Shown here: piece by piece, positions 1,823 to 57,889 of the stretch | How the letters are laid out: every line of letters begins with the position of its first letter | Numbering within the stretch: position 1 is the first letter of the stretch | Source of the DNA: Anthostomella pinea | Lineage: Eukaryota; Ascomycota; Sordariomycetes; Xylariales; Xylariaceae | NCBI GenBank assembly: GCA_963556695.1 | Contig: CAUWAG010000007.1 | Coordinates: 1,984,001-2,048,000 of the forward strand | Direction: 5' to 3' | Length of the DNA stretch: 64,000 nt | The notes under the pieces: generated by a model | Told to the model about the DNA's origin: nothing | Database searches by the model: none | The model's input: only the letters and a program-made list of their open reading frames with translations | Translations under genes and position numbers: made by a program

Positions 1823-3577
1823 ATGGCAGACGAGACCGAGAAGAAAAGGCAGCTGATGGAGTCCAGCCACACACTCTTGCCAAAAACAACTATTTTTCTT
1901 GGCGCCCCGCTGTTAGGGCGCAACCTCTATATCTGCACTAAAGCAGGCATTTGTCTCAGTACCTGACTATCCTTGCCAAGGCGCAGAAAAATTTTCTCAC
2001 AAGCTGGATGGCACCCTTTCACGATAGGCCCCCAAACACGCCAGTGGCCGTCCCAAAGACGACTACTGGCGGCGTGTTCAAATCCCCAGTCCCTAAAAGA
2101 ACACATGACCCGGCAACCCCAAGCAGGCTCCGCCAGGCACTGCTCGACGACATCAACAGCAGCCCGTCACAGGTCTCTGAGGCTGACTTCACCACTGTTT
2201 CCCCTCTGAAAGGAAAATCCCGAAATATCATTAATAGCAGCACCATTGATATGGGAATTACCTCAGTCAAGCGAAATCCTACAGACCAAGCCATTGGAGG
2301 TGATACAGGGAACAAAGTCTCTTCTTCAGAGTGCCAGGACCAAGTTGCCAAAATACTGGCTAAAGACAAGCATCTCTATAATGACAATGTTTCAGGAGTG
2401 TGCTGCAGCAGTCGATAAGACACTTGAGAAAGCTGGAACCAAACTATACTCTCATGCCAAGGAGTTCAGCGCTTTCTTCTCCAAATGTCTGAATGAGTGG
2501 CTGGAAACCCGAGATCTGACCACAAGAAAGGCCACTTCTGGGGGGATAGAAATAGGGAAGCCCACCATGACCTTCGCCCAAGCTGTCTCCTCTGGCCAAC
2601 GACAGCATCCATGGATAGTCAACACTACCATAAAGAAAACACAGCCTAGTGCCCTTATCACTATCAACCAATTGAAGAGGAAGCAGGATGATCTCCGGGT
2701 TTTTGTCCGCATGGATAATAGCCACCTTGAGCCTTATGGAATTAAGTCTACACTAAACAGAAGACTTAAGCTCCACCCTCAGGAGCTTAGAGAAATGACA
2801 CGGTGTCCTTCTGGATTTACCTTACACCCAAGGGACAAGCCAACTCAGGCTAAGCTTCTGGCTTTCTAAGAAGAAATTGCCGACATTCTCAAGGCACAAA
2901 AGATTAAGACCCACACAGTCTGGCATCATTACAAGGTCGATAGATGCCCAAGAAAGGTCATCAGTGCAGAAGGGTTCACAATCGATATTACCGACACTGT
3001 TGTTGCCAATGAAGTTGAAGCCCAAACAGGCGACAGACCTCTGAGGTGCATACTCTCAAAGAACACGACTGATTCTGATCCAGAAACCACGTAGATAATC
3101 TCTCTGCCCAGTGCAGCAAGGAAACCATTCACGCTTTTTGCCCACTCAATGACCTCAAGGCATATTCAACACACCCCCAAGGTTCACCAGTGTGCAAGCT
3201 GCTTCAGATACCATGGTAGGAATTACCGATGCGAAAAGCAAGTATGTGCACACTGCGCCAACACAGTACACCAGGGAGAGTGCGAAAAACCAATCCCAAA
3301 GTGTGTCAACTGCAAAGGACCTCATGCTGCCAATTTCAATAAATGCCCTGCCCGCCCCAAGGTTGTGAAAGGTACCATCCATAAGCACACATGGGAGCAA
3401 ATCCAGGAAATAAGGCTAGCCGGGGAAAGAGCCAGATCCAAGGCCTTCAATGAAGCAGGCAGAAACCAAGCTAGGTCAACACCCAGCAACAATAACAAAG
3501 ACACCACAATGCAAATCGACACAACAGATACAACTCATCCCAGAGATGCCGATACCATTGTTGTCAGTCAATGTTAG
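1823..3577 (+). pseudogene. LINE copy 1 ORF1 (gag-like, CCHC zinc knuckles), broken
   Basis: The gag-like product would bind element RNA. It is read in pieces: an ATG at 1823, a frame change near 1950, a second near 2250-2418, then one frame to 3577 interrupted by TAA at 2867-2869 and TAG at 3092-3094. The C-terminal part (from about 3186) has closely spaced Cys/His knuckles (CASCFRYHGRNYRC, CAHCANTVHQGEC, CVNCKGPHAANFNKC), the hallmark of LINE ORF1/gag proteins. Both in-frame stops could come from CAA or CAG by a single C-to-T change. The last bases overlap the ORF2 start in the 7-base string ATGTTAG (3571-3577). The exact start and the repair of the frameshifts are uncertain. Confidence 0.75.
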
Positions 3578-6500
3578 GTACATCAAACGAAACACATCAA
3601 CACAGGCATCTAGTCATCCATTCTGTGAATACAGCAGGAGGACAAAAGAGTACAGGCCTTACAGAGTTAGCCATCAACCTGGCTGACTACAAAGGAGAAC
3701 AAGCAGACATCATTCTGATGCAAGAGCCCTGGGTTGGCATACCACCAGGCAGAAGAATGGGAGTAAAGACACACCCTAATTACAATATATACTCCCCAGT
3801 GGATTCCTGGGACAGCGACAGTACACGGCCCAGATCTCTCATCTATGTGAGAAAACACCTTTAAGCGGATCAACTTCGGCCCTATGCTACACGAGACATC
3901 ACCTGGGTCAAGGTACATGGCATCACTTTTGCCAGTGTCTACCGGCCATGTGACAACCCACAGGAAGTGGATGATATTCTAGAAGTATGGACTCCACCTT
4001 TTGGCTGTGTTATAGCTGGAGATTTTAATGCTAGCGACATATCCTGGGACTCGAGCAATCCAGGATATCACGGTGGCGTCATACTGGCACAGACTATGGC
4101 AGACCACGGACTGGATCTGATTTCTGAACCAGATGTCCCAACAGATGACGATGGAAATGTACTGGATCTGGTGTTCTCAGATGTCCCCATGGCTGAAGCC
4201 TCAGTCAATGATACACTTCAGTGCACCTCAGATCATGAGACATTACGAATAGTCATTCCAATTCAGGGAGATCGGGACCGAGTTCCTAAGGCCAATCATT
4301 GGATAGTACCGGACGATAAACTACAAGAGCTGGCAGACAATGTCCAAACCAGGATTTATGAACTCCCCCGGCTGGGTGTATCCCCTGGCCAGGTGGATAC
4401 CTTTACACAAAGCTTGATCAATATGATTCAAGGCTGTATCAGGACAGTGGGCAAGAAGCCCCGTCAATCTAGGCCCACTGCTTGGTGGAATGATGACTGC
4501 AAAGCCGCTGTTCAGACATACAGGGCCCTTTCTAAACAGACCACAAGCCAAGAAGGGCGAAATTCAGCCCGACGGGAATTTTGTTGTGTGGTCCGAAAAG
4601 CTAAGAGAGAGTACTGGCAGACTCTAATTGATTCAGCGACTGAACCAAAAGACCTGTACAGAATTGTTTCCTGGCACAAGCTGTCAGCAGGATTGCGTTC
4701 CCCCCCAATTATCATAGGGGACCAAATCTTTGAGTTATAAGAGAGCAAGGCAAATGCACTACGCTTAGCCACGCTTGAACGAAGTACCCCAGACAACGAT
4801 ATCATCGGCCCCTGGTCTGCTCAGATCACACAACCCAAGCCACACATCCCCCTTGAATACCATGTCGGACTAGAAGAGGCTGAAGGGTGCACTATAGGGA
4901 CCAAGAGCAACTCCCCAGGAGTAGACACCCTCACAGTACGGATTCTGAAAGCTTGCTGGCCAGTCATTGGGGAGCATATCAGAGCCCTTTTCCAGACCTG
5001 TTTACAGATTAGACACCACCCTAAACCATTCAAAGTAGCTGAGGTAGTAATGATCCCAAAGCCAGGCAAGAAAGACTACTCTAACCCCAGGGCCTACAGA
5101 CCAATATCGCTATTATCATGTCTTGGCAAAGGCCTAGAATGACTCATTGCAAAAAGAATTGCCTGGTTTGTCATCAAACTCGGAATTCTAGCTCCACAAC
5201 ATTTTGGAGCTCTGCCAAAGCACTCTGCCGCCGACTTGGTAGCTGCGCTCATACACGATATCGAGCAGGCCCTTGACCAAGGCCTTGTTGCAACGGTAGT
5301 CACAGCAGATGTAAAAGGGGCCTTCGACGCTGCCCTAATGGGACGGCTGGTGGTTCGCATGAGAGAACAGGGCTGGCCAGACTTTCTCATAAGATGGGTC
5401 CAGTCATTCATGTCTGAACGGTCCGCAAGAGTTCGGTTTGAAGGTATTGTGACCGACATAAAAGCTCTCACTTGTGGGCTACCACAAGGCTCACCAGCTT
5501 CTCCAATCCTTTATATGCTGTATACAGAGCCAATCTGTGCCCGACTCGGTATGAAAAGGAGACGCTTTGGATATGCAGACGACCTAGCGACTCTCTGTAT
5601 TAGAAAGAACCTTAAGGAAACAGCTACAGAGGCTTCTAAAAACCTTCATTTACTCAACCAATGGGGACACAATAATGCTATTGAGTTTGACCCCGACAAA
5701 ACTGAGATCATGCACTTCTCACGGAAAAAGAACTCAGACAATCCTCCGGTCCGCCACAGGACAATAAACAGAACAGCAAAGAACTCCATGCGATGGCTGA
5801 GTGTCTTCCTGGATAGAAAACTGAACTTCAAAGATCACGTTTCCTACTGGGCCAAGAAAGCTAATAGGGTAACAAACCACCTTTGAGGACTATGCAACAC
5901 AGTCAAAGGACTTCCAGTAAAGTCAACCAAGAGGGCTGTGAAAACTTGTGTTATTCCTATTCTTACACATGGCCTGGAGGCCTGGTACCCAGGAATGGAA
6001 AAAATTAGGAGCTTAGGTGGGACATCAGCATGTCGCATTAAAGGGCTTCTTAGAACGATAGATGCTGTACTATGAACGGCGATCAGGGCTATCTTGCCAG
6101 TCTGGAAAACACACCCTGGACATATCTTACACTTTGAATCGCAGATTCCCCCAGCAAGAGTTCTTGCAGAGTCAATAAGAAGACGTCACGGCCTCCGACT
6201 CGGACGAGTAGATCAGAGACACCCTCTTGTTAGCAGGCTCTAAATACAAGCTCGCAAAGAACCAATAAGGCTACAAAGGAGCTTCCAACTAGTCCCTGAC
6301 TTCCAGAGACCAATACTCACCAAGCCATTATGGAAGAAGCCCCCAGTCTATAAAGACAAAGACAAAGAAATAGAGCTCTTTAAGCAATGGCTACAGGAAA
6401 GAAATACGAACACTGACCTTGTCATCTATTCAGATGAATCACAATTGGACGACCAAGGCACAACCCGCACTGGATGGGGCTATACCATCAGGAAAGGCGG

Positions 6501-7263
6501 CACTACACAAGAAGTATACCGGAGAAGGGGCAGACTTCTACAAGCAGAAGTAGTGGATGCTGAAGTCCATGGTGCTCTCCAAGGTCTTGCAGCAGCCAGG
6601 GCAATTGGACACAGAAAACAGCTATATGTCTGCCTGGACAACACATCAGTGGTGGATGGGCTCAATGGGACTCCACCCGAGACATCACAGAACATTTTTC
6701 TGCGATTCCAAGAACTCGCCACAGCACACACTCCTGGAGTGACCGTCAAGTGGATTCCTGGACACAGAGATATTGATGGTAACGAAGCTGCCGATATATT
6801 AGCAAAAGAGGGTGCTATGCTAGAAACAGACATAACAAACCTTCCTATAATCTCTTGGGTCAAGAGAGATCTTAAGAGAAAGGGCAAGAAAGAGTTCAAC
6901 CAATGGTAAAAAGACCAATCAGAACCTAAGTATCAAGAAGTATACTCACATGCAGTAACTAAAAGAGGCCTTATATCCTTTAAGAGGAGCACTCTACACA
7001 GACTTCTAGCGGCCAGATCTGGACATGGCGACTTTGCCAGATACCACGAACGCTTTGGGCATACAGACTCGAACAACCACTACAGCTGTGGTGAAAAGAA
7101 AATACCACAACATATTTTCTTTTGTAAGAGGCTAGGAAAAAATCGGTTGTTGCCTAGGTACTCGCCTAGGACAGCCTGTTTACAATACTTAGGGGAGAGG
7201 AGCACAAAATGGGCAAAATTCATGGAGAAGAGCAAATTCTTTTCATCAATCTGTCCTCGATAG
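3571..7263 (+). pseudogene. LINE copy 1 ORF2: endonuclease - reverse transcriptase - RNase H - CCHC, nonsense-damaged
   Basis: The frame starting at 3571 runs to the natural stop TAG at 7261-7263, about 1,230 codons, with no frameshift. It is cut by stops at 3862, 4738, 5140, 5884, 6073, 6241 and 6907. Domains in order: EEP endonuclease (MQEPWVG near 3718, AGDFNAS near 4015, SDHE near 4230); reverse transcriptase with motif A TADVKGAFDA (5308), motif B GLPQGSPASP (5476) and an intact catalytic YADD (5572); RNase H with YSDES, AEVHGALQGL, CLDNTSVV and GNEAADILAK (6427-6810); and a terminal knuckle (CGEKK...HIFFC) near 7090. Comparison with copy 2 shows that the stops at 5140 and 6241 are CGA and CAA there. 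Confidence 0.85.
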
Positions 7264-7699
7264 ATAGCTGTTCTTGAAGGACCAGATGGATGACCCCAAG
7301 GTCATACCGCCGCAACAACGGGGATGGGCCCGTGAGTGGGACTGACTGTACTTATTTTCTTGAGACCTCCACAACCCTGCGATACAGAGGCTCTGGGAGG
7401 CGTGGTCTGCACTACTGAGGAGCTACCCCCCACGTTAAATACAAAACAAACAAACAAACAAACAAGTGTCGTGGTGTCAGTGAATCCTCCTCCGACCGAT
7501 AAACTGTTTATAGTGCATTCCCACAAGAACAACCCCACAGCGGGCACCAGGTCACATACATGGATATATTACCGTGGTTGGCAGTTAGAGACGCCCTGCC
7601 GAATATAGCACAGGACCCATGCTGCATCGCCACTGATGACGAACTACCTATGGTGGATCCAGGGACCAGATCTAAAAATTGAATGCACCATCTCTCGGG

Positions 7700-7713
7700 C
7701 ATTGCCATTTGCC
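7700..7713 (+). repeat. Left target-site duplication of the SINE (14 bp)
   Basis: CATTGCCATTTGCC is repeated exactly at 8292-8305 directly after the CAAA tail. This marks the insertion as a single target-primed event. Confidence 0.88.
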
Positions 7714-7805
7714 GGCCGTATGGCGCAATGGTCAAATGCGCCTGGTTGTGTTCTCGTTTGTGCGGTGGGCGACGAGAACAAGTGGGTTCGAATCCTGCTA
7801 TGGCC
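7714..7805 (+). other. tRNA-like head of the SINE (internal Pol III promoter)
   Basis: A box TGGCGCAATGG is at 7721-7731 and B box GGTTCGAATCC at 7785-7795, both matching consensus, 53 bases apart. The first seven bases (GGCCGTA) pair with the last seven (TATGGCC, 7799-7805) as an acceptor stem with one G-U pair. GCGC at 7723-7726 pairs with GCGC at 7738-7741 as a D stem. The anticodon arm is not preserved: the middle instead forms an 8-bp hairpin GTTCTCGT (7750-7757) with ACGAGAAC (7772-7779). It is therefore a tRNA relic and not a functional tRNA gene. Confidence 0.8.
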
Positions 7806-8291
7806 CCCTTTCTGACCCGGCTTGTGCGAGTCGATAACCAGCACACGACAGTGGAGAGGCCCCATTTTATCGCAGAGCCCGATAGCCAAGCAGCTTGTCT
7901 CCACAATACCCACTCCTGCGAGGTTTTCCCCCTTGTGGTTTCCCTCGCCAGCAGATAACAAACACCTACTCCACCCACCAATGCGACATATATCGAACGG
8001 CTACTGGAACGATATGTACACCAGAGAACTGAGGTTCACTGGGTCGCTTTGTCACTAGATAGGAGGTTTTTCTGACGGAATCGTGCTTGGGTATTGACTA
8101 AAAAACCATCTGAACACTCCAGATTGGTACCGCTACAGCGAGGATAGGCTCGTGCGCGGATCTGAATGTATCTAATTTGACACCTCTACAACCTTGCGAT
8201 GCAATGGCTCTGGGAGGCGTGGTTTGCACTACTGAGGAGCTACCCCCCACGTTAAATACAAAACAAACAAACAAACAAACAAACAAACAAA
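7714..8291 (+). mobile_element. tRNA-derived SINE whose 3' tail is shared with the neighbouring LINE
   Basis: A 578-bp insertion is flanked by a perfect 14-bp duplication, CATTGCCATTTGCC, at 7700-7713 and 8292-8305, so its ends are defined by the sequence. The head (7714-7805) is tRNA-like with RNA polymerase III A and B boxes. A body of about 320 bp without recognisable coding follows. The last ~165 bp (from about 8126) align with the LINE 3' end, and the last ~86 bp (from GGCTCTGGGAG at 8206) are almost identical to it, including the (CAAA)n tail. SINEs that borrow the 3' end of a partner LINE to recruit its reverse transcriptase are known in other eukaryotes. That this one uses the 1.8-7.5 kb LINE family is inference from the shared tail. 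Confidence 0.85.
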
Positions 8292-8305
8292 CATTGCCAT
8301 TTGCC
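8292..8305 (+). repeat. Right target-site duplication of the SINE (14 bp)
   Basis: Identical to 7700-7713. The sequence after it (ATCAAGG) would have been contiguous with the left flank before insertion. Confidence 0.88.
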
Positions 8306-9796: not shown

Positions 9797-10688
9797 TGCC
9801 GTTAGCTCAGTACACGAATATCAGACCACGGATCCTGTTGTAAAAACTTACTTGTACTTGCTTAGATGGAGTAGTCAGTAACTTTTTATGTTGCGGCGAG
9901 TGGCATCCAAGGCTGTGGCGAATAACAGCGAACAAGGTTATTAATGATCAGTCGTTATTTTATTAAATAAAAAATCCATCCCGTAAATGTTAAATCTTAA
10001 ATGCAGTTTAAGGTCGTGCCGGCCCTCTTTTCTTCTTTTTTCCCCCGTCTTGCAATATTACAAGATCCTTTACCATAAGCCATATACACCACCATAAGAT
10101 GTCAAGCAGCATGCTTGACATTTAACATCCTTTTAATAGGAGATCTAGGTCTTTGGTTTGGTTTGGTGGTCGAGGTTTGCTAGATTGTCGCACAAACCCC
10201 CCTTTTCCCACAAACACCCCATCCCGCAACATCAGAATATCATCAGCCACGAGCCTAACATCAAAGCAAGGATAGCTCTGAGTGCCGGGGCTTGGTTTGG
10301 TGAGCCTCGAACCGATATCTAACCTCGTGGCAGGGGTGTTCATTACCAATTAAGCTTCTGAGAAAGCAAAACCTAGCAAGGTTTGCTGGATTGTCACACA
10401 AACCCCCCTTTTCCCACAACAGCCCGTCCTGCAACCAACATCAGAAAATCCTCACCATCACCAGGAGCCTAACCTCAGCGCCAGGAATAGCTTTGAGTAC
10501 CAGGCCATAGTTAACAGCTAACAACAGTCCATATCCAAGAGAAAAGTCGTCCGTCCCCCAGCTCCAGCAACCCACAAGCACCACCACAACATACCGGTCC
10601 CCATTATCCATACACCGTGGCCGCATCGTACATACTCCCAAACGCCTACAAGATACGATACGCTACCTCCAGAGTCCAGTCCCATTAC
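9797..10688. repeat. Intergenic stretch with a degenerate direct duplication
   Basis: About 10171-10330 and 10377-10530 are diverged copies about 206 bp apart. Both contain GCTGGATTGT-like, ACAAACCCCCCTTTTCCCACA, CGCAAC..ACATCAG and GAGCCTAAC elements in the same order. Around 9940-10010 the DNA is AT-rich. No gene is supported. Confidence 0.45.
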
Positions 10689-11152
10689 TGTTACGAACCA
10701 ACAAATACCATGGCCTGTTGGAGGGCCAAGGGGAGTACACCAAGAACCAATGGAATCAGAAGCCAGGAACAGAACAACGGGTATTACGGATTACATAACA
10801 AAGGTCACGTGACGGATCACTGGATTACGGAGTGAGCCAGTGAGCATCACTCTGGGACAAGGTGATCCTATTCCATCAGTGAGGGAGAGATTGGATATAT
10901 AAGGACAGACATTTCGCAACTAGATAAATAGACAGTCTCTACCTCAGTGATCAATTTAAGCATCTTAGCCAACCCTAAGGTGGGAGAAATCTTCTGATGA
11001 CTCGACTACACAGTAAACCCAGTTCAGACCAAGCCCCAGTATCTGAGTGTCTTCTAGTTGACAGAAGCCTCTATCGTCCTTTGTGTTGACTTACCTCAGA
11101 ATATAAAACCCTATAGAACCCTTTAGCCTTATAGGTTAGACGGCTCGTCACA
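10689..11152 (+). mobile_element. Solo LTR of an LTR retrotransposon (family A), with 5-bp target duplication
   Basis: This 464-bp unit begins TGTTACGA and ends TCGTCACA (imperfect inverted termini, TG...CA) and is flanked by ATTAC at 10684-10688 and 11153-11157, a canonical 5-bp integrase duplication. A TATA-like GGATATATAAGG lies near 10894-10905. A diverged copy in opposite orientation is at 55146-55578. No gag or pol is next to it, so it is a solo LTR left by LTR-LTR recombination. Confidence 0.87.
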
Positions 11153-11157
11153 ATTAC

Positions 11158-13053: not shown

Positions 13054-16000
13054 TTAGATCGGCTCATCCCGCGGCTCAATCAGAACCTCATTCACAGCAA
13101 CGTGGGCTGGCTGGCGCAGCGCATAAATAATCGCATCCGCCACCTCGGCCGGCTCAAGGACCTTGGCGCCCGTCGGCTCGCCGAACTTCTTGATGGCCTC
13201 AGCATCAGTCGACATGCCCAGGAGATCCGTGGCCGTGTTTCCGGGCTGGACCGCGGTGACGCGCAGGCCGGTGCCCGCAGTCTCGAGGCGCAGACTCTGC
13301 AGCGTCGCCTCGACGAAGAACTTGCTGGCCGAGTAGACGCCCAGGCCCGGGAACACCTTTCGCCCGGCATCGGATGAGATGGCGACGATGTGGCCACTGC
13401 CCCGCGAGAGCATTGATGGGACCGTCGACGACAAGCAGTGTAGAAGACCCTTGCAGTTCACGTCGACGGTGCGCTCCCAGTCTTCCGTCTGCACATTTGC
13501 CATCATCGTGAAGTACATCACTCCCGCACAGGAGACGAGTATATCGATGGGGCCGAGCTTCTCGTTGGCCGTACGCATCAGCGATTCTACTTCTTCGCGT
13601 TTGGTCACATCTGTCTTGTGAACAAGGACTTTGCCGCCGGATCTGGCAATCTTGCTCTTGAGAGACTCGAGGGCGTCAGTGCGGCGAGCAGCAATGGCGA
13701 CATGCGCGCCCTCTCTAGCCAAAGCAGTAGCGACGGCAGCCCCGATACCGGACGACGCTCCCGTAACGACAGCGACTCGGCCTGCCAGGGGTCCATTCCT
13801 GGTGGCATGTACAGCCGCATTCGACGGATGTCGTTTAGGGGGTCGTGGCAGCCAGCCTCTGGCGCAGAAATGCCGGGCATAGATCTCGAGCAGCTTGGTG
13901 TCGATCTTTGGCCTTTCCATGCCTGCCTTCTTCGACGCCGGCGCAGTCGCGGGGTCCTTGAGTACAGTCACCCACGTGAGAAACTCAATCGAGGGCATAC
14001 CACGCCGAAGGATCTCGACAGTGAAAATATTATCTGCCTTGCCAGAACCTCTCTTCTCGTTCCACAGCGCAACCCAGTCTTTCCACGCCAGGGGCTCTGT
14101 AGGATACCCAAGCTCGGCGAGGCTGTTGAACACGTCCTTCGTAGTGACGGGGTTGGGGTCACCGAGATGAAATACGCGCTGCTCGGTATCGGCGAGGTCT
14201 GCAAGGGACAGAATCGCCTTACTGACGAAATCAACTGGGGTCATCTCAGCGTACCAGCCCTCGATGTCTGGCGCACGCCCCAATTGAAGCGACTCCACGA
14301 TCAGCGCATTTAGTAGATCGTACGTGTTCGAGGAGCCAGAGGTGCTGTGACCGCTGATGGTACCGGGACGGTAAATCCTAGCTGGCAATCCCCGTTTCTC
14401 GGCCTCGAGAACGAGCTTTTCGGCCACCCACTTCGTCTGTCCGTATCCATCCAACAGCTTATCTGGGACGTCACCGACGTCTACCATGGCGTCTTCCGTC
14501 CAGCCCTCAACCGAGTTAGGCAGTACGCCATTGGTCGAGATGTGGTGCACAGTCGCGCCTCCTTGGCAGGCCAGCCGGAGAATCTCTCTCGTGCCAAAGA
14601 CATTAGCACCCTGCATCGCCGCGTAAGGATACACAAGGTTGACAGTAGCAGCCGAGTGGATGATGACCTGCACGCGTGAAGCCAACGCGTCAAAGGCGTC
14701 AGGCGACAGACCAAATCGCTTTCGCGCCAAGTTCGCGGGTATAATCTCGATACGATCAAGCATTGAGTCGTTCCAGAGGCCCAAGTCCAGAAGATTGTTT
14801 CGCACACGTGCCATTCCAGCTGACGGGTTGGTAGTCGAAAGGTCAGCGAAACGCACAAGACAAATGACGTGCGCCGATGTGGTCTCTAGGAGAGTGTTCA
14901 GCAGGAATGCCCCCAAAAATCCAGTCGTGCCGGTCAGTAGGACAGTGTCGGCTTCGCTGAGACGCTGCATCTTGGCTCCTTTCGGTTTGATATCCACTGG
15001 AAGGACTGAGTCGGTTTCCAAGACATGTGGAAGATCGGCCTGGACTGCTGCAGTGTGTCCGTCACGGGCGTTTTGCACAACTTCCAAGTGACCCTTTAGT
15101 GTTGGGTTACCAGCAAGGCGTGCAAGCGGCACAGGAAAGCCATAGGCACCGGTGAGTCTTGTGACAAGGTCAACAAGGCAAAGTGAATGACCTCCGAGAT
15201 CGAAGAAATCGTGTTCCTGTTGCATTACAGATTTATATGGTATGCTGAGAGCCGCAGCCCACATCTTCGCGATGTCCTCGAGGGTGATCTTCTGATCTGC
15301 GTCCTTCTTGTTTCCGTTGACCAGAGCCTGTGGGGGGCTGCGAGACCGGGTTGGAGAGGGCAGACGTTTCAGGTCGACTTTACCTGACACTTCGTGAGTA
15401 GGGAGGGAGTCCATCTCAACCCACAATGCAGGGACCATGTAGTGGGCCAGACGCGATGATAGTGATCGTCGAGCTGCAGGACTAAATCCTGCCTCGTCGA
15501 TAACAACAGCAGGGCGATCTCCTGGTTCATCTCTGTCAGGAACCACGTATGCCAGCAGTTGTCGATCAAGGCCATCGCCGTGAGAGACGACAGCACAATG
15601 GGAAACAGCAAGATGAGTGACGATGGCGTTTTGGACAGCACCGGGTTGGACACTGTATCCCCGGATCTTGATCATGGCTCCGACACGGCCAGTGATCTCG
15701 AGGAGACCCGAGGGAAGCATCCGTGCCGTGTCACCGGTTCGGTACAGACGTGCTCCGGGTGTCCCGTCATAAGGATCCTTGTTGAAGGCCTTCGCTGTGG
15801 TTTCCGGGAGATTGAGGTACCCTCGGGCCAGAAGACCGCCACCGATGAGCAGTTCACCGCTGACACCTGCCTCAACCTGCTTGCCATCCTCATCGACAAT
15901 GTAGGTATGGTCAGGGTCGAGAGGAGGCCCAACTGGGACCACCTCGGCCTCACTGTCAAACATCTCCTTGATATCTCCACAGGCGATCTCGTGAGTTTCG

Positions 16001-16917
16001 CTGGCACTGTAAACGTTGAGAAGGCGTGCATTCGGGAGCGCCTTAATTCCCCTGTGGGCGAGGTCGTTGGTGACCACCTCACCATTCAGCCACACGGTAC
16101 GCAGGTTCTTGACACGACTTCCCAGCTGCGAGTGTCGAGCAAGTACTGTCGCGAGCAAGGTAGGAGTCATGAGAGTCTCGGTAATGTTCTTGGAGCGCAG
16201 CAGCTCGACAAGAGCGACAGGGTCGTAACTCGTCTCGTCTGGGACAGTGACTACCGTGGCTCCACGGAGTAATGGACGGAGGATTTCCCAGATGAAGAAA
16301 ACATTGCAGGCCACACGGTCACCGGGCTTCAGGTCACTCAGACCAAATCTCAAGTCATAGGAGCAAACCGCAGCCCTGTGTGGGTTGGCAATTCCCTTGG
16401 GGCGTCCCGTAGTGCCAGACGAGTATGACACGAAGGCGAGACGTTCGAGGTCATCCTCGGCGGGTAAGTTGGGTAGAGTCTTTGTATTTCCGTCAGCGAC
16501 AGCGGCACTGTCCGTATCCGTACCTGCTTCGTCGAGGATGATCAGAGGAATATCGCGGTTGATTTGGCCGGCGTGAGCTCGATGGGTGATGATGACCTTC
16601 GGCTTGGCATCTTCAACGACGTCGGCCAGCAGCCCGGGCGGGTAGGCAAGTTCAAGGACAAGGAATGCTCCACCTGCCCGGAGCGCGGCGAGGCAGGAGA
16701 TAACGTAGTCGGCACTTCGGCCCAACAGCACACCCACCAGGTCATCACGGCCGACCCCGTCGTGGCGCAGGCGGTTAGCGAGGGCGCCGACCTTCCGATC
16801 GAGCTCCGCGTAGGTCAGGCTGATGGGCCCATCTTCCAGGGCAACGGCATCAGGCGTGGCTTTGACCTGCGACACGAAAAGTGCCGACAGGTCTTTGGTG
16901 GTGTCAATGACGGGCAT
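13054..16917 (-). CDS. NRPS-like carboxylate reductase A-T-R-R (glycine-betaine-reductase type)
   Basis: The single exon encodes 1,287 residues from the ATG at 16917, chosen because family similarity starts there; an in-frame ATG at 17025 would add 36 unlike residues. Domains: adenylation ~10-515 (A3 YSSGTTGRPKG 165-175, A5 NVYSASE, A7 YRTGD, A10 Lys513); thiolation with LGGHS 574-578 (phosphopantetheine Ser578); thioester reductase ~655-990 (TGTTGFLG 662-669, Tyr825-xxx-Lys829); and a second, SDR-type reductase ~1045-1287 (TGASSGIG 1052-1059, Tyr1195-xxx-Lys1199). There is no condensation domain. This order matches the fungal ATRR family, in which one member reduces glycine betaine through the aldehyde to choline. 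The A4 region reads FFIWE (207-211), where amino-acid-activating domains have an Asp that holds the alpha-amine, consistent with a substrate lacking a free alpha-amine. The exact substrate is inferred. Confidence 0.88.
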   Translation of the reverse strand: MPVIDTTKDLSALFVSQVKATPDAVALEDGPISLTYAELDRKVGALANRLRHDGVGRDDLVGVLLGRSADYVISCLAALRAGGAFLVLELAYPPGLLADVVEDAKPKVIITHRAHAGQINRDIPLIILDEAGTDTDSAAVADGNTKTLPNLPAEDDLERLAFVSYSSGTTGRPKGIANPHRAAVCSYDLRFGLSDLKPGDRVACNVFFIWEILRPLLRGATVVTVPDETSYDPVALVELLRSKNITETLMTPTLLATVLARHSQLGSRVKNLRTVWLNGEVVTNDLAHRGIKALPNARLLNVYSASETHEIACGDIKEMFDSEAEVVPVGPPLDPDHTYIVDEDGKQVEAGVSGELLIGGGLLARGYLNLPETTAKAFNKDPYDGTPGARLYRTGDTARMLPSGLLEITGRVGAMIKIRGYSVQPGAVQNAIVTHLAVSHCAVVSHGDGLDRQLLAYVVPDRDEPGDRPAVVIDEAGFSPAARRSLSSRLAHYMVPALWVEMDSLPTHEVSGKVDLKRLPSPTRSRSPPQALVNGNKKDADQKITLEDIAKMWAAALSIPYKSVMQQEHDFFDLGGHSLCLVDLVTRLTGAYGFPVPLARLAGNPTLKGHLEVVQNARDGHTAAVQADLPHVLETDSVLPVDIKPKGAKMQRLSEADTVLLTGTTGFLGAFLLNTLLETTSAHVICLVRFADLSTTNPSAGMARVRNNLLDLGLWNDSMLDRIEIIPANLARKRFGLSPDAFDALASRVQVIIHSAATVNLVYPYAAMQGANVFGTREILRLACQGGATVHHISTNGVLPNSVEGWTEDAMVDVGDVPDKLLDGYGQTKWVAEKLVLEAEKRGLPARIYRPGTISGHSTSGSSNTYDLLNALIVESLQLGRAPDIEGWYAEMTPVDFVSKAILSLADLADTEQRVFHLGDPNPVTTKDVFNSLAELGYPTEPLAWKDWVALWNEKRGSGKADNIFTVEILRRGMPSIEFLTWVTVLKDPATAPASKKAGMERPKIDTKLLEIYARHFCARGWLPRPPKRHPSNAAVHATRNGPLAGRVAVVTGASSGIGAAVATALAREGAHVAIAARRTDALESLKSKIARSGGKVLVHKTDVTKREEVESLMRTANEKLGPIDILVSCAGVMYFTMMANVQTEDWERTVDVNCKGLLHCLSSTVPSMLSRGSGHIVAISSDAGRKVFPGLGVYSASKFFVEATLQSLRLETAGTGLRVTAVQPGNTATDLLGMSTDAEAIKKFGEPTGAKVLEPAEVADAIIYALRQPAHVAVNEVLIEPRDEPI

Positions 16918-19900
16918 TGTCCCTTCCTTGGACGGTCCGACTTGGGACCAACGGCGGCGAGCAGGATTCGGGGGGGGACGGACAGTGGCAGGTGGCCGTT
17001 TCAACGGCTTGACAACACCCCCCAATCAGTGGCACGTGGTGATATCTCAACCACGCGCAGAGTGAAGAATCCGAGCCTCGACGATGCCCGAAGCTGTGGT
17101 GGTGGTGGTAGTGGTAGTCTGCTCAAGACTCACTGTCAGAGGACAGCGGTGGGAGACGGAAGAGCAATCAGGTCTTCGTGACTTGGGTGGTGTCGAATTG
17201 ACCCCCGGCGATGACGATTTTGGTCGAACTGGTACGCGGCAGTCCGGTTCTCTTGGTTCCAAGGTTGTCGGGTGTTTTGCGGACGGCTGGAGTCTGGAGG
17301 TGCCTGGGTGTGTGGAGTGGGCTGAACTTGTGCTGCAGCTAGTCAAGAAGGTATTAAAGGGTATCCGCAAGCGGAGGCTTCGCTCTAACTCACGGGGAAG
17401 GCACGAACTCTGCTGTGTTCTAAGGTTGGTATCACGCCTTCTGTATGCGAAGTAATAAAGTCAAGGCAGACATTAATAATAATACAACTTATAGTTTTTA
17501 TCCTAGGTCATCCCTCTACTCTACTCCCCAAGTTGCCTACCATTGCCCCAATAGTGTCCTATCCGCCAAGATAGATAACGGGCGGACCGAGGCGGCAAGG
17601 TCAGGGTCACCCGGAGACACATCCAATTGGTCTCAGAGTAGCAGTCTGGATGGCAATCCTCCTTGCCGGGTACGATAGCGACCGTCGTCGTTGATATGGC
17701 TGGCGATACCTGTATCTCTGCTTCTCGACGTCGGTGGCCAGCCAGCGAATGAGAAGCCTTACCATCCCAGCGCCGTCCAAGCAACCGCCCAGGGTGTTGT
17801 GGTCACCGCTACGTAGGTGGAGGATCTCTTTTCCATGTTCCCGGTCTGCCGGTGTTCGCCTCGCTCGCCTCTTGAGTTCCATGCAGCTCTGTGCCTTGGC
17901 ATGCATGGTCTGGCACCGTCAAGACCGTCTGAAGACTGACTCGGCAGCAGCTCGGGTGGGCAGAAGAAGCATGCTGTTCAGGCTGTCAGGCCGTCCGACT
18001 GGATTGCCGGATTGCCTAGTCGAGATGACCTCGTAGCATTCGGGACCATCCTACTGGCTGCCCCCACCAATCACCCCATCGCCTGGTGCAATGGTCCAGT
18101 GGTCCCATCTCCGGGCCCCGATCGACGAGGCACGCCGACGCCGGCTTGTTCCGATCTGCTGGTCGGCGCACTATCGGAGCCGGCTATCGAGATTCAATCT
18201 ACCTTCATATGCCGTGAAACACGACCGACCCCCAACTTTCCATAGAGGAAGGGAAATACATCACGAGACCACATGTCATGATTCTCCAAACCCACGTCAT
18301 CACGACCGGCTGCGAAGCTCCGACTTTGCGAGTAAACCTGTCACATCACTAATTGATAAAGTCCGAAACGTCCTTGTGCGGTTTATTGTTCCAGTTGGAG
18401 AGGGAATGTCATCACTAACCTTGAATGGACCAGCGGCCGTCAACATCTGTTATGTCGCGCCGTTACTTCATGTTGTGTCTACCGTCGTCTCAACAAGTCG
18501 ATCGAATGGAAAGAAAGCTGACTTTTTCTACTCACTCAAGATATCCCGTTATACGTAGGGGGTTTACCGGTATTCAGTGGTAATGACACAGAGATCCGTG
18601 ACTGGCAAGACCATGAGCTCCTGATCGCTGGTGAATTTGACTATTCCAGGACATGTGCGTTGTCCGGGGATGAGGTAGAGTGTCCCAAGCCAGTAACATC
18701 TCTCCATTCTCCGGGTGTCACTCGTTTCACTTCCTACTCGTTCCTTGTGGACAGCCCATTCGTCCGGCAGCCTGCTGCAAAAGGAATTCGTTGCGGGCTC
18801 GAAGTTGTTTAATACCAAGCTCAGTGTCTGCATCGGTACCTGCAATTACAGTGCTCCCCGTTTTCGGCACGCCATGCTGCTTTTCTCGAAGTAAGACAGG
18901 TTGTGTGTAGGAGAACCCTTGAGTTGTAAGCAAAAGGCACTCTTTGCGGTTATCTGGTCAGTCGAATATCATTGCCTACTTTTCAACGGGCTGGTATAGC
19001 TTACTCTAGGAGTAAACATAACGAGCATCTGAAATATGTCTAAGGCAGGTCTGCACGCCAGCATGCCTGGAGGATATACTGGGCAAACCACATGGATTTG
19101 AATGGATCAGAATAAGGACCGAGGCAGCTTTGGCTATTCATATGCTGGTGTTGCCTAAGTTGAGTAGTATGCCTCGGTTCTATGGTGTAGATTACAAGCT
19201 GCCTCCCACGGGCTAGGGCTACGGCTTTTCGCGGCTGCAAAGCGTGAATACAATCAAAAACAAAGGTGTCCGGGGTCGAGGTTGCATTGTCTGGGCTAGG
19301 ATAGCCGTTTCTTGGGTCTCCGAACAATAAACACAATCAGGGTGAAGTGTAGAAAACAGCTTCTTACCTCCAAGGAGCCATCCACTGGGCCGACTTTCGA
19401 CACTTCCTATGCCATGCACTATATGCCTCTAGGAAGCCTCGTCATGTAACAGTGAGTATTCCCCGGAGAACCTCATGACCCGTGGGGCCAAGATACCCTT
19501 ATCAGGAGTTTCCATATTCAAGGGGTCTGGGTATGAGGTGGACAATATGTCTTGTTTTCTACTGATTGGGCAAAATGTAAATCTGCTTTGAGATGCTTTC
19601 AAGCTTGCCTCTTGTCGAGAACAATAATGGCAACATACTTCAACTTAAGGCGGTCACGTAGGCATTCACATGACCCTGAAGCGAAAGCATTCCCCTACGA
19701 CTTGGCGAGAGTATGTTGGATTCTGGGCTATGTTAGCCCATCCATAGTCATCCTTCAGGATCACCATCCCCATTTGTGACTCTGTCACATACGTGGCCAA
19801 TATAAGGCCACGTATCCTTTCCTTTAGTATCTTGGATATATATAGGGCCACTCTGGCCGCTCCAGAGTAGCTGGAATTCCTCTCCTTAATAGAACACTTT

Positions 19901-43633: not shown

Positions 43634-43651
43634 TCTTCATGGCTTCATTGG
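43634..43651 (+). repeat. Left 18-bp target-site duplication of the LINE-tail insertion
   Basis: TCTTCATGGCTTCATTGG is repeated exactly at 43785-43802. Confidence 0.92.
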
Positions 43652-43784
43652 GCCCGTGAGCGGGACTGACTGTACTTATTATCTTGAGACCTCCACAACC
43701 CTGCGATACAGAGGCTCTGGGAGGCGTGGTTTGCACTACTGAGGAGCTACCCCCCACGTTAAATACAATCAATCAATCAATCAA
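43652..43784 (+). mobile_element. 133-bp 5'-truncated LINE 3'-end insertion with 18-bp target duplication
   Basis: The insertion is bounded by TCTTCATGGCTTCATTGG at 43634-43651 and 43785-43802 (18 of 18 identical). The insert begins GCCCGTGAGCGGG and matches the last ~120 bp of LINE copies 1 and 2. Its tail is (AATC)5 rather than the (CAAA)n of the other copies. It is a dead-on-arrival product of target-primed reverse transcription. Confidence 0.92.
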
Positions 43785-48665: not shown

Positions 48666-48683
48666 AACATAAGAAATCTACTG
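48666..48683 (+). repeat. Left 18-bp target-site duplication of LINE copy 2
   Basis: AACATAAGAAATCTACTG is repeated exactly at 51710-51727. Confidence 0.92.
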
Positions 48684-51600
48684 GGCAAGAAGCCCCGTCA
48701 ATCTAGGCCCACTGCTTGGTGGAATGATGACTGCAAAGCAGCTGTTCAGACATACAGGGCCCTTTCTAAACAGACTACAAGCCAAGAAGGGCGGAATTCA
48801 GCCCGATGAGAATTTCGCTACGTGATTCAGAAAACTAGGAGAGAATACTGGCAGACTCTAATCAATTCAGCGACTGAGCCAAAGGACCTATACAGAATTG
48901 TCTCCTGGCATAAGCTATCAGCAGGATTGCGTTCCCCCCCAATCATCATAGGAGACCAAATATTCGAGTCATAAGAGAACAAGGCAAATGCATTACGCTC
49001 AGCCATGCTTGAACGAAGTACCTCAGACAACGATATCATCGGCCCCTGGTCCGCTCAGATCATACAACCCAAGCCACACATCCCCCTTGAATACCAGGTC
49101 AGACTGGAAGAGGCTGAAGGATATACTATAGGGACCAAGAGCAACTCCCCAGGAATAGACACCCTCACAGTACGGATTCTGAAAGCTTGCTGGCTAGTCA
49201 TTAGGGAACATATCAGAGTCCTTTTCTAGACCTGCCTACAGATTAGACACCGCCCTAAACCATTCAAAGTAGCTGAGGTAGTGATGATCCCAAAACCAGG
49301 AAAGAAAGACTACTCCAATCCCAGGGCCTACAGACCAATATCACTATTGTCATGTCTTGACAAAGGCCTAGAACGACTCATCGCAAAAACAATTACCTGG
49401 TTTGTTGTCAAACTTGGAATTCTAGCTCCACAACATTTTGGAGCTCTACCAAAGCGCTCTGCCACTGACCTGATAGCTGCACTCATACACGGTATTGAAC
49501 AGGCCCTCGACCAAGGCCTCATTGCAACAGTAGTCATGTCAGATGTGAAAGGGGCCTTTGATGCTCCCTAATGGGACGGCTGGTGGTTCGCATGAGAGAA
49601 CAGGGCTGGCCGGGCTTTCTCATAAGATAGGTCCAGTCATTCATGTCCGAGCGGTCTGCAAGGGTTCGGTTTGAAGGTATTGTGACCAATATTAAAGCTT
49701 TCACTTGTGGGCTACCACAAGGCTCACCAGCCTCTCCAATCCTTTACATGCTATATACAGAACCAATCTGTGCCCGACTTGGTATGAAAAAGAGACGCTT
49801 TAGATATACAGACGACCTAGCAACTCTTTGCATTAAAAAGAACCTTAAAGAAACAGCTACAGAGGCTTCTGAAAATCTTTATTTGCTCAATCAATAGGGA
49901 CATAACAACGCTATTGAATTTGACCCTAATAAAACTGAGATCATGCACTTCTTAAGGAAAAAGAACTCAGACAACCCTCCAGTCCGCCACAGGACAATGA
50001 ACAAAATAGCAAAGGACTTCATGCGATGGCTGGGTGTCTTCCTTAATAGAAAACTAAACTTCAAAGATCACGTTTCCTACTGGACCAAGAAAGCTAATAG
50101 GGTAGCAAATCACCTTTAAGGACTATGCAACACAGTTAAAGGACTTCCAGTAAAGTCAACCAAGAGGGCTGTGAAAGCTTGTATTATTCATATTCTTACA
50201 CACGGCCTGGAGGCCTGGTACCCAGGAATCAAGAAAGTTGGGAGCTTAGGTGGGACATCAGCATGTCGCATTAAGGGGCTTCTTGGAACAATAGATGCCG
50301 TACTACAAACAGCGATCAGGGCTATCTTGCCAGTCTAGAAAATACACCCTGGATATATCCTACACTTTGAATCGCAGATTCCCCCAGCAGGAGTTCTTGC
50401 AGAGTCAATAAGACGACGTCACGGCCTCTGACTAGGACGAATAGACCAGAGACACCCTCTTGTTGGCAGGCTCCAAATACAAGCTCGCAAGAATCCAACA
50501 AGACTAAAAAAGAGCTTCCAGCTAGTCCCTGATTTCCAGAGACCAATACTTACCAGGCCATTATGAAAGAAGCCCCCAATCCGTAAAGACAAAGACAAAG
50601 AAATAGAGCTCTTTAAGCAATGGCTACAGGAAAGAAATGCGAACACTGACCTTGTCATCTATTCAGATGGATCACAGTTAGACGACCAAGGCACAACCCG
50701 CACTGAATGGGGTTATATTATCAGGAAAGGCGGCACTACACAAGAAATATACCAGGGAAAGGGCAGACTTCTCCAAGCAGAAATAGTAGATGCTGAAGTC
50801 CATAATACTCTCCAAGGTCTTGTAACAGCCAAGGCAATTAGATACAGAAAACAGCTATATGTCTGCCTGGACAACACGTCAGTGGTAGATAGGCTCAATG
50901 GGACTCCACCTGAGACATCACAGAACATTTTTCTACGATTTCAAGAACTTGCCATAGCACACACTCCTGGAGTGACCGTCAAGTGGATTCCTGGACACAG
51001 AGATATTGATAGCAACAAAGCTGCCGACACACTAGCAAAAGAAGGTGCCATGCTAGAAATAGACACAACAAACCTTCCTACAATCTCTTGGGTCAAGAGA
51101 GATCTCAAAAAAAAGGGCAAGAAAGAGTTCAACTAATGATAGAAAGACCAATCAGAACCTAGATATCAAGAAGTATACTCACATATAGTAACTAAAAAAG
51201 ACCTTATATCTTTTAAGAGGAGTACTTTACACAGACTTCTAGCGGCCAGATCTGGACATGGCGACTTTGCCAGATACCATGAACACTTTGGGCATACAGA
51301 CTCGAATGATCACTGCAACTGTGGTGAGAAGAAAACACCACAACACATTTTCTTTTGTAAGAGGCTGGGGAAAAACCGGCTACTGTCTAGGTACTTGCCT
51401 AAGACAGTTTGTTTACAATACTTAGGGGAGAGGAGCACAGAATGGGCAAAATTCGTGGAGAAGAGCAAGTTCTTTTCAACAATCTGTCCCCGATAGATAG
51501 CTTTTCTTGAAGGACCAGATGGATGACCCCAAGGTCATACCGCCGCAACAACAGGGATGGGCCCGTGAGCGGGACTGACTGTACTTATTATCTTGAGACC

Positions 51601-51709
51601 TCCACAACCCTGTGATGCAGAGGCTCTGGGAGGCGTGGTTTGCACTACTGAGGAGCTACCCCCCACGTTAAATACAAAACAAACAAACAAACAAACAAAC
51701 AAACAAACA
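48684..51709 (+). mobile_element. LINE copy 2, 5'-truncated inside ORF2, with 18-bp target duplication
   Basis: The body is collinear with copy 1 from 4449 to the tail. It begins GGCAAGAAGCCCCGTC just after AACATAAGAAATCTACTG (48666-48683), and the same 18 bases recur at 51710-51727 after a long CAAA tail, so both ends are fixed. It retains the end of the endonuclease-RT linker, RT, RNase H, the Cys/His knuckle and the 3' UTR, and lacks ORF1 and the endonuclease core. It carries more stops than copy 1, a 1-base deletion near 49564, and the RT active site reads YTDD instead of YADD. Most differences from copy 1 are C-to-T or G-to-A in CpA/TpG contexts. It cannot be autonomous. Confidence 0.9.
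49281..51136 (+). pseudogene. LINE copy 2 ORF2 remnant (RT and RNase H)
   Basis: RT pieces are recognisable from MIPKPGKKDYSNP (49287) through GLPQGSPASP and the altered YTDD (49808). RNase H runs from YSDGSQLDD (50660) to AADTLAKEG (51021). The frame is broken by many stops, for example the Trp codon TGG of copy 1 turned to TAG near 49895 and 50337, and by the deletion near 49564. Confidence 0.8.
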
Positions 51710-53861: not shown

Positions 53862-54600
53862 ACCGTCACGTAGTCTTTAGTTGACGACATGGTATAATAT
53901 TCAATGTACTCTGATAATGTTGCAAAGTGGTGATTCAATGCTCCCTTGGCGGCTCGTGACATCCATTCGGGTTCGACTTGGAGCCCTGAGACATAAATTC
54001 TGGGATCTCGTATTCGACCTGGTGGCTTACCACACCAAGACCACTGCTCCCATATAACGGCGGGGCTATATAAATGGGACACCCCAATATGTGGGACAGC
54101 TTTTACACCAAGAGGCTAGACTTTTACCTACTGATAACCCAATCGGAATTAAAGCTCTAAATAAACTATGTAATGTGTTTAAATTGCTTTTTTAAAAACT
54201 TTTTAGCAATATTATTTGTTTTAGCGGTAGCGCGTAAGCTAGCGGGTTACGTGGCATAGAGATCGTATTATAATTGTTGAATGGAAGCCGGAAATTGTTG
54301 GATTAAAAGTACGCCTAGAGGGCACCTTGACAGTTAGACAACGGAACCTAGTTGTTCCGTCCCAATCCAGCCCCCTCTGGCAAAAAGCTGCCACGGTCGT
54401 ACAGGGACACTTCAAGGACACAGAATACACACATACACTTCAACCTCACGATTGGCTCAAATCTAACAGAAATAGACACCGGAAGATCTCTAGTGGGGCA
54501 GAGACGCACAGGGCATCTGACCCACCAAGAAGACAGATGATCAATCTCTGTACGCTGAAGAAGCAGAGCAGAACAAGAAGTACAACAGAACACACTTGAA
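53862..54600. other. Transition from gene-bearing to AT-rich DNA
   Basis: No supported gene. The segment at 54057-54107 is the left arm of an inverted repeat pair described separately. Confidence 0.4.
54057..54107 (+). repeat. Left arm of a ~49-bp inverted repeat pair flanking the AT-rich block
   Basis: ACGGCGGGGCTATATAAATG and the following ~29 bases match the reverse complement of 57841-57889 with about five mismatches. The TATA-like centre suggests a promoter or LTR piece of a mobile element. Confidence 0.6.
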
Positions 54601-55145
54601 AACCTGAATAATCTGAACTCGCTTGCATCTAACAATAACAAGCTTGTTGGACATATTATCCGTATTATTATTCTTTTTGTTAATAGTAACTTTTTTATTT
54701 TTAAAGGTCCTTAATTCTTTTAAATCTTTTAATTTTAACTTTAAAAAAGGTTTAAGTACTAGTCTTTTCAGTTCGTTAGTGTTTAAGTTTTATAATATAC
54801 GTATAACTTCTCGTCGTTTTTCTTGCTATTTAATAGCAGCTCGTGCGACTTCCGTATGCTCGATTTGGTTTAAATAACGTGTTAAATTTCTTTAAGTCGT
54901 TAACCAAGCTTTTTTAAAAGTGCTTTACAACGCTTGTTTAACTATAAACGCTTAATTTCGTTATTTTTTCTTTTAATAGTTTTTTTAAGAGCGTTAGCTT
55001 AAACATTATTTTATTATAAAACTTTGTAATTAAATAAACTACTACTTACTACTTAAAGGTTTTAATAACTTATAATAAAATTAAGGTTATATCTTGTCTT
55101 AATTCAAAGGCTTTTAAAACCTTTAAAGTGCTTTAAAGGTTAGTT

Positions 55146-55578
55146 TGTGACGAGCCGTCTAACCTATAAGGCTAAAGGGTCTATAGGGTTTATGTTCTGA
55201 GGTAATTCAACACAAAAGACAATAGAGGCTTCTGTCAATTAGAAGACACTCAGATGCTGGGGCTTGGTCTGAACTGATTTCTCCCACCTTAGGGTTGGCT
55301 AAGATGCTTAGATTGATGACTGAGATAGAGACTGTCTATCTATCTAGTTAGGAAATGTCTGTCCTTATATATCCAATCTCTCCCTCACTGATGGAGTAGG
55401 ATCACCTTGTCCCAGAGTGATGCTCACTGGCTCACTTCGTGATCCAGTGATCCGTCACGTGCCCTTTGTTATGTAATCCGTAATACCCGTTGTTCTGTTC
55501 CTAGCTTCTGATTCCATTGGTTCTTGATTTACTCCCCTTGGCCCTCCAACAGGCCGTGGTATTTATTGGTTCGTAACA
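55146..55578 (-). mobile_element. Solo LTR, family A, opposite orientation to 10689-11152
   Basis: The reverse complement begins TGTTACGA and ends TCGTCACA, and aligns along its length with the LTR at 10689-11152, with several indels. The flanks (TAGTT and TTATT) are not identical, so the target duplication is lost or mutated in AT-rich DNA, or this copy arose by rearrangement. Confidence 0.85.
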
Positions 55579-55862
55579 TTATTATAGCTGTTATTATTAC
55601 TTAAATCTTCCTTGATTTTATTATATGCTCGTTTATTGGCATTTTTCGCTTATTTACCGGCTAAAGCCTAGCACTAGGCCATTTTAAACGCATAATAACT
55701 AACGTAATTCTGTTACAAGCTTTTGCTAGATAAAAAAAGATATTAATTTTCTTAATAAAAGCTAAGTTATTAAGCTAGCTAAGCTAAGCATTTAAGTAGC
55801 AATCAACGGCTTTGAGAACTAAAAGAACGGTTGAATATACCAGTTAAAAATATAAAGCTACC

Positions 55863-56118
55863 TGTCACGATTCTGTAAATGTATTACAAGGATACAGGGA
55901 CCCTTATTAACTATTGACGTATAACAAACACTGGTTAAAGGAAAAGAAAGATCTGGAAATACACCCAAATTGGTAGGCAGCTAGATGTGGGCAGTCGTCC
56001 CCCACCAGATCCACTAGTGCATGGATCAACCTATCGTTCGATCAGTCACGTGCTCAGTCACGTGACCCGGAGACCATGGGGACCATCACTAGACCTGATG
56101 GATGGTGGAACTATCACA
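55863..56118 (+). mobile_element. Probable solo LTR, second family, 256 bp
   Basis: The unit begins TGTCACGATTCTG and ends ACTATCACA. Flanking 5-mers are CTACC (55858-55862) and CTACT (56119-56123), one C/T difference apart, which RIP-type mutation could explain. It is a GC-balanced island in AT-rich DNA. No coding sequence. Confidence 0.5.
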
Positions 56119-56883
56119 CTACTCTTATTAGCAACATAACTACTAGTTAATTATATAACTTACCGCATAAGTAAGAAAAAGGCTTATATATACGTTATTC
56201 ATATAATAAAAATATATAAACTTATTTAAATAATAGCTGTTATAACCGTTAAGTATTAATAAGGGAATATTATCTAGATCTTTATAAATAATATTAAGTA
56301 AACATATTTTAAAGCTAATTAATTCATAATTATAATTAGTAACTTTAAAAAACCTTGCCTTTCTTCACTAATATAACGCCATTTTGTTCGAAGTTTAATT
56401 ATTAATAAAGTGCGTTATTATCTAGTTTACCACCGTAAGATGCTTTCTAAACTATTACGCTTAAATTGACTTCGCTTTAAACATAACTAACGGCCGGAGC
56501 TTTTCCCCCGTAGTAATGATTGATGTTACTATAATAATTTACATATAACTGTCGTTAAACTTAACGTTAGCTCTTTTCAAACTAAAACTGCTTATTATAA
56601 ATGATATGTGTCACCAGGGGGTAGTGATGGGGAAGACCCACTATAGCAACTAGATAGATTAGATAAGGGCTAATGAGGCCGCACAATACCATAAATATGT
56701 GCTGTTCCAACCCTTGTAGTTTGTGATCTCCAACCCGCACCCATATACCAATACAGACCCATCTACACACGCTTCAATAAAGCTACTAATCTTATAATAT
56801 TCCGGTTAGCCGTTTAAAAACTACTTAAATTAAACAATTTACTTACTAACGACCTTATATAATGCCGTACTTATTAACATATA

Positions 56884-57840: not shown

Positions 57841-57889
57841 TGAAAACTGTCCTACATATGGGGGTGTCCCATTTATATGGCCCCGCCGT
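57841..57889 (-). repeat. Right arm of the inverted repeat pair with 54057-54107
   Basis: Read on the minus strand it matches the left arm at about 90%. The two arms point inward around 3.7 kb of AT-rich DNA. Confidence 0.6.

Follow-up and report, generated by a model that had tools for sequence, protein, structure and literature searches.

How does a short element with the head of a tRNA gene come to end like the long retrotransposon beside it, and is the combination a transposing unit or an accident of nesting? The question is raised by positions 7714-8291 of a 64,000-nucleotide stretch of the genome of the fungus Anthostomella pinea (the window, i.e., the whole stretch analysed), which an earlier note, made from the sequence, had read as a SINE lying next to its likely partner LINE. 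The sharing of 3' tails between SINEs and LINEs is established in general terms. What a SINE needs in order to change its LINE partner is, in our judgement, often blurred by age.

The element in the window and its surroundings

Positions 7714-8291 are a complete tRNA-headed SINE with a LINE-derived 3' end (Table 1). The parts named in the earlier note are largely as it described them: the 14-bp target duplications are exact, ARAGORN delimits a tRNA whose acceptor stem has 7 pairs (one of them G-T), and the A and B boxes fit the patterns TRGYNNANNNG and GWTCRANNC, which we take to be the Pol III consensus. The homology of the 3' end to the upstream LINE also stood (85.3% over 156 columns), the LINE-like sequence covering 153 bp near the end of the SINE (8130-8282) and the LINE itself stopping 247 bp upstream, while the body showed no DNA-level match to the window LINE in a BLAST search within the window.

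Table 1. Coordinates and basis of the features described, in positions of the window
Feature	Position	Strand	Basis
Left target-site duplication, CATTGCCATTTGCC	7700..7713	+	Exact 14-bp match to 8292-8305
Right target-site duplication	8292..8305	+	Exact 14 bp
tRNA-like SINE head	7714..7808	+	ARAGORN; Rfam RF00005, 28.2 bits vs 29 cut-off
A box, TGGCGCAATGG	7721..7731	+	Element position 8; fits TRGYNNANNNG
B box, GTTCGAATC	7786..7794	+	Element position 73; fits GWTCRANNC
SINE body	7809..8129	+	BLAST of SINE vs window: self and tail only
Older LINE-related tail part, common to SINE-A and SINE-B	8130..8205	+	85% to LINE over 8130-8282
22-nt block, same in SINE-A, SINE-B and LINE consensus	8206..8227	+	Alignment columns 491-512; putative crossover zone
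Putative captured LINE end	8228..8291	+	33 nt as in LINE subtypes A1/A3, then (CAAA)n of A1
Neighbouring decayed LINE copy	1868..7466	+	Homology to L160 and L161 begins at 1868; frames broken
Decayed LINE, endonuclease	3865-4737	+	Pfam
Decayed LINE, RT region	within 4741-5883	+	Pfam RT match 5143-5883
Decayed LINE, RNase H	6244-6906	+	Pfam
Decayed LINE, 3' end	7310-7466	+	BLAST
Second LINE copy, 5'-truncated	48682..51698	+	91% to first; exact flanking 18-bp repeat
LINE 3' end alone, ~135 bp, ending (AATC)n	43649..43784	+	BLAST; exact flanking 18-bp repeat

The head is tRNA-like but degenerate, since its score against the Rfam tRNA model (E 0.0012) lies just under the cut-off; an Rfam scan of the whole window at that cut-off gave no match, and the 'His' attached to the head by ARAGORN is a label only. 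No parent tRNA was found among 20 host tRNA genes (best score 26, shuffle 95% level 28), the two alignments displayed spanning 13 nt of the B-box region. The SINE-A consensus (the subfamily of the window copy, see below) has an internal run of five T at position 354, which could stop Pol III. A genome-wide tRNA search gave at least 66 tRNA matches (from the best 63 of 2100 candidates). As an observation in its own right, the same small tRNA gene clusters recur on contigs C1, C2, C9, C13, C15 and C16 (e.g., C2:322559-323334 and C16:4954607-4955382), as might be expected of mitochondrial DNA copied into the nucleus.

BLAST found four LINE-type 3' ends in the window (7310-7465, 8130-8282, 43649-43784 and 51543-51707), the number previously claimed, although the terminus that they were said to have in common does not extend to the third, which ends in (AATC)n and not in (CAAA)n. 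In the 18-bp repeats flanking 43649-43784 and 48682-51698, a base or more may belong to the tail. For the neighbouring copy at 1868..7466, a target duplication was looked for and none found, and Pfam gave no match for 4741-5139; the closest named-organism matches of its RNase H piece are from Xylaria and Rostrohypoxylon, which points to a host probably of xylarialean type. Since this LINE is broken, ORF2 included, and is one of many copies, its adjacency to the SINE means little.

Some further features of the window were recorded. Another repeat stands in two inverted copies, 88.7% identical, at 10686-11153 and 55145-55581, and a related repeat lies on both flanks of one of the LINE copies fetched from elsewhere in the genome (L159). 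Positions 54001-58000 are AT-rich (GC 0.34-0.37, the rest of the window being mostly near or above 0.48), and a long open frame on the minus strand, at 13054-17025, may encode an NRPS-like adenylating reductase, which it resembles by eye.

A dispersed SINE family and the LINE that shares its tail

The first 34 nt of the head match the 53.7-Mb genome 264 times at no more than three mismatches, against none for the reversed-pattern control. A search with the whole element, for which the best 40 of 868 candidates were considered, gave at least 40 matches that are 98-100% identical over nearly the full length and two partial ones at 84-86%. In a set of 79 copies or fragments (38 head or whole-element loci, 40 B-tail loci and one further SINE-A, L076), target duplications of 9-19 bp (mode 14) flank 63, being exact in 57 and with one mismatch in 6; duplications of at least 12 bp occur in 60 of the 79 copies vs none of 226 mispaired flanks taken as a control. 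Three of the 16 copies without a duplication lack one because the script recognised no tail. A pyrimidine directly precedes the duplicated site in 55 of the 63, and the number of terminal-repeat units differs from copy to copy.

Could the window copy nevertheless be a truncated LINE tail nested by chance in an unrelated tRNA relic? Nested insertions do exist in this genome: a SINE with its duplicated site lies inside a LINE at L049 and also at C5:3495360, and at L138 the initial 383 nt of a SINE-A run directly up to a LINE end (one side was read), which is apparently a LINE inserted in a SINE-A. However, units with the same head, body and tail and with duplications of their own stand at dozens of sites spread over several contigs, which excludes the chance reading with near certainty. 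One unusual SINE-B-type copy (L032, G000:C3:41127-44160) carries about 213 bp inserted just 3' of the head, with a 14-bp duplication around the whole unit.

Do all full copies end in the tail of the window copy, as had been proposed for checking? They do so in part: 21 of the 38 head loci carry that tail (tail A, ...CACTACTGAGGAGCTACCCCCCACGTTAAATACAAAA(CAAA)n), but 15 carry a different one with its own 33-nt segment (tail B, ...CCCTATGGAGGGACTGCACCCACGATAAATACAATC(AATC)n, with variants), and two are cut short (L023 and L026). These are two subfamilies, SINE-A, to which the window copy belongs, and SINE-B, with head and body in common and different tails. At no more than three mismatches, the A string occurs 373 times in the genome and the B string 164 times (controls 0). 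Among the A-tail places without an exact head (n=20), 18 are LINEs and 2 SINE-A; among 40 B-tail places without an exact head among the heads listed, 39 are SINE-B copies or fragments, and the other (L047) is a 42-nt fragment that could not be assigned.

Copies of the LINE with an open ORF2 lie elsewhere in the genome. A Pfam endonuclease search gave at least 150 matches (the best 150 of 268 candidates), of which 24 lie in frames of 1254-1255 aa (the list was read by eye), 23 of them with no stop flagged. One open ORF2 that was scanned has endonuclease, RT and RNase H domains, with its best match in Neoarthrinium moseri (70% over 62%) and further named matches to many Fusarium, Metarhizium and other fungal proteins at ~40-50%; this domain order and the mostly fungal named matches fit the Tad1 clade, to which we presume the LINE to belong. 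Two of the four long-frame copies checked have duplications resembling those of the SINE (an exact one of 14 bp in L159, which is 5'-truncated, and one of 13 bp in L161), and in the other two (L160 and L162) no duplication was found. Six sequences taken downstream of endonuclease matches (L131-L134, L136 and L137) gave no match to the LINE and were dropped.

The 56 LINE ends read fall into four types according to their C run and repeat, namely A1 (six C, AAAC; 21 ends), A2 (five C, AAAC; 12), A3 (six C, AATC; 10) and A4 (GATCCCCC, AATC; 12), with one further end unclassed, counts that follow the picking of loci and not genome frequencies. The long-frame LINEs are of type A2, in which 10 of the 11 ends long enough to compare equal their consensus over ~260 nt, and they have five Cs (12/12) vs six in SINE-A, A1 and A3; the donor subtype discussed below is therefore not the open-ORF2 one.

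Taken together, a stringent-type SINE/LINE pair is supported as the right reading, because head, body, tail and duplications recur together and because the LINE copies of this genome whose ORF2 is open have an end almost equal to that of the SINE, shorter by a single C. The 3' end is common beyond the terminal repeat (156 columns, 85%), its last 33 nt and the 22-nt block being equal to the LINE consensus, and the SINE is a dispersed family with target duplications and with both boxes in its tRNA-like head. A CGTGG/CCACG pairing is possible in the tail, in invariant columns without covariation to judge it by, and the predicted tail folds are unlike between SINE-A and SINE-B.

Origin of the SINE-A tail

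The two SINE consensus sequences are closely similar up to the 22-nt block and diverge after it: 18 of 490 columns differ before the block (14 substitutions and 4 gap columns) vs 9 of 33 after it (Fisher p 1e-5), and within the older LINE-related part the differences are confined to three adjacent sites. The comparison of SINE-A with the LINE consensus, which rests mostly on copies chosen by the exact A tail, runs the other way, with 23 of 83 columns differing upstream and 0 of 33 downstream (p 2e-4). Against the A2 ends (n=12; 11 chosen because of a 1255-aa ORF2 frame and so not by tail, one for a frame of 1132 aa), the difference is one C in 33, missing from all 12, vs 23 of 83 upstream (p 0.002). 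The exact 33 nt of SINE-A stand in 31 of the 56 LINE ends, that is, in all 21 A1 and all 10 A3; as most of these ends had been selected through tail patterns, their agreement with SINE-A is in part a product of that selection. The block itself has one difference in the window LINE copy.

Single copies follow the consensus pattern. Of the A states, the A-tailed copies fetched have 12-14 of 14 upstream and 8-9 of 9 in the tail, and the B-tailed ones at most 5 and 2, respectively. A string across the SINE-A junction is matched 99 times in the genome when no more than two mismatches are allowed (a full listing); read by eye, 96 of these have SINE-like and three LINE-like bases. Three adjacent upstream columns (460-462) also separate SINE-A from SINE-B, and SINE-A looks slightly LINE-like there, which makes one crossover perhaps too simple an account. 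A LINE with the 33-nt end of SINE-B was not found, and a LINE/B-tail hybrid pattern had 0 genome matches; the reading of B tails covered 40 of the 164 matches and the 15 B-tailed head loci, which leaves room for a rare donor LINE.

The subfamilies also differ in age. SINE-A copies lie a median of 0.55% from their consensus (n=14, range 0-2.96) and SINE-B copies with the same exact head 3.05% (n=14; p 2.4e-5), while 31 long SINE-B copies picked by tail have a median of 3.72%. These figures exclude the first eight loci, which had been chosen for their likeness to the window copy and show 0.00% divergence from the A consensus throughout; one of the 14 SINE-A copies (L076) was picked by tail and not by head, and the exact-head choice favours young copies in SINE-A and SINE-B alike. 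By this divergence SINE-A is young and SINE-B older. In 46 SINE-B copies, 670 of 899 changes are C>T or G>A, with CpA changed at 7.0% vs 3.1-5.2% in other contexts, which suggests mild RIP or deamination; heavy RIP as an age signal of SINE-B was considered and rejected, since the CpA excess is modest and at most mildly RIP-like. SINE-A copies, for their part, are little mutated despite a length of more than 500 bp.

The probable explanation, in our view, is that a tRNA SINE is mobilised by the enzyme of the LINE whose tail it shares, and that SINE-A arose from a SINE-B-like element by capture of a LINE end. Pol III would transcribe the SINE from its head, and the LINE enzyme would treat the 3' piece of the transcript as that of the LINE itself, after which the LINE endonuclease would nick the target and reverse transcription would begin, target-primed, in the terminal repeat (these enzyme steps are modelled on work on stringent LINEs described in PMC3747384). 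At some point the last 33 nt and the terminal repeat of a SINE-B-like element would have been replaced by those of a LINE, with the crossover in the 22-nt identical block. The donor was presumably of subtype A1 by its repeat (the 33 nt alone fit A1 and A3), and the exchange may have been a template switch, in which the LINE enzyme starts on LINE RNA, copies its end through the common block and jumps to SINE RNA. SINE-A would have expanded after the capture, and perhaps as a result of it.

The direction of the exchange might have been the opposite, SINE-A having kept an ancestral LINE-like end without any capture and SINE-B having changed. If the terminal segment is selected for recognition by the enzyme, its identity to the LINE could be retained for long, and no LINE donor was found for the end of SINE-B (0 matches for the hybrid pattern, and further SINE sequence in 39 of the 40 B tails fetched). 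Nonetheless, we consider this unlikely. In the neighbouring LINE-related stretch, SINE-A and SINE-B alike stand 22-25% away from the LINE types (a comparison in which some LINE rows are 5'-truncated, inflating the LINE-to-LINE medians), but over the final 33 nt the difference is 0 (A1, A3) or a single base (A2); SINE-A is by far the younger subfamily; and, counting the repeat unit, SINE-A fits one LINE subtype, A1. The manner of the exchange is a different matter, since gene conversion or DNA recombination of a SINE-B copy with a LINE tail could have made SINE-A as well. The 22-nt identical block would suit DNA recombination too, and SINE and LINE copies nest in each other. Nothing decisive speaks against it, although the swapped piece reaches the very 3' end, terminal repeat included, as expected of an enzyme starting there, and DNA recombination seems to us a rather improbable route. 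Capture of the LINE end by template switching on RNA is the reading preferred here.

Known systems and the meaning of a probable small swap

The earlier note had held a clear fungal case to be much rarer than those in animals and plants; LINE-tailed SINEs are already reported from three fungi (PMC3747384, PMC5063351). Mg-SINE with MgL and SINE2-1_BG with Tad1-24_BG are listed as tail-sharing pairs in PMC3747384, and AfuSINE2-1a with I-1_AF, from Aspergillus fumigatus, is described in PMC5063351. Mg-SINE of Magnaporthe grisea is, like the present family, tRNA-derived, from a filamentous fungus and with a 3' end in common with a LINE (MgL/MGR583; PMC3747384); it has 472 bp and ca. 100 copies (PMC5063351) vs 578 bp and 264 head matches here, and the passages on it, from which the likeness is drawn by description, mention no tail-swapped subfamily. 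SINE2-1_BG of Blumeria graminis is also a tRNA SINE with a LINE end, likened here by description, and the name of its LINE places that LINE in Tad1 (PMC3747384). In AfuSINE2-1a, positions 210-335 resemble the 3' UTR of I-1_AF, but it ends in ACT repeats, unlike the (CAAA)n and (AATC)n found here, where SINE-A is young (PMC5063351).

Exchange of parts is known from animals. HaSE1, HaSE2 and HaSE3 of Helicoverpa armigera have one part in common and differ in another, which their authors attribute to template switching; HaSE3 has a different head and HaSE2 a mariner-like 3' region, whereas the change seen in the present case stays within one SINE family and is limited to the final 33 nt with the repeat (PMC3272025). 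In marsupials, recombination brought WALLSI2 a tail region common to other SINEs (WSINE1/WALLSI2), a similar event although a mammalian one (PMC3403934), and PMC6685494 deals with changes of the tail in SINEs of butterflies. The Neoarthrinium moseri paper mentions SINEs and LINEs in general terms only, in the parts that concern them (PMC12369201). No earlier description of this SINE family or of its small recent swap was met in the literature searches made, one on Xylariales included. LINE-tailed fungal SINEs and the exchange of parts in animals being known, what recommends the present family is a swap that is recent, small and mappable.

The value of the case lies in a single assembled genome that contains the SINE in its older and its newer form, LINE 3' ends of several subtypes, and LINE copies whose ORF2 is open. 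Differences between SINE-A and SINE-B are densest in the final 33 nt and the repeat, a pattern that provides a small, defined segment for testing what a fungal LINE reverse transcriptase recognises. A wider reading can be put forward tentatively, at somewhat less than an even chance: that the LINE lineage has (AATC) and (CAAA) subtypes, that an (AATC) SINE was overtaken by a derivative with the captured 33 nt and (CAAA), which then expanded, and that the swap thereby maps the recognition signal. If this were true, the signal would be narrowed to some 55 nt or less, together with the repeat, and the two subfamilies would amount to a natural domain-swap experiment in a fungus.
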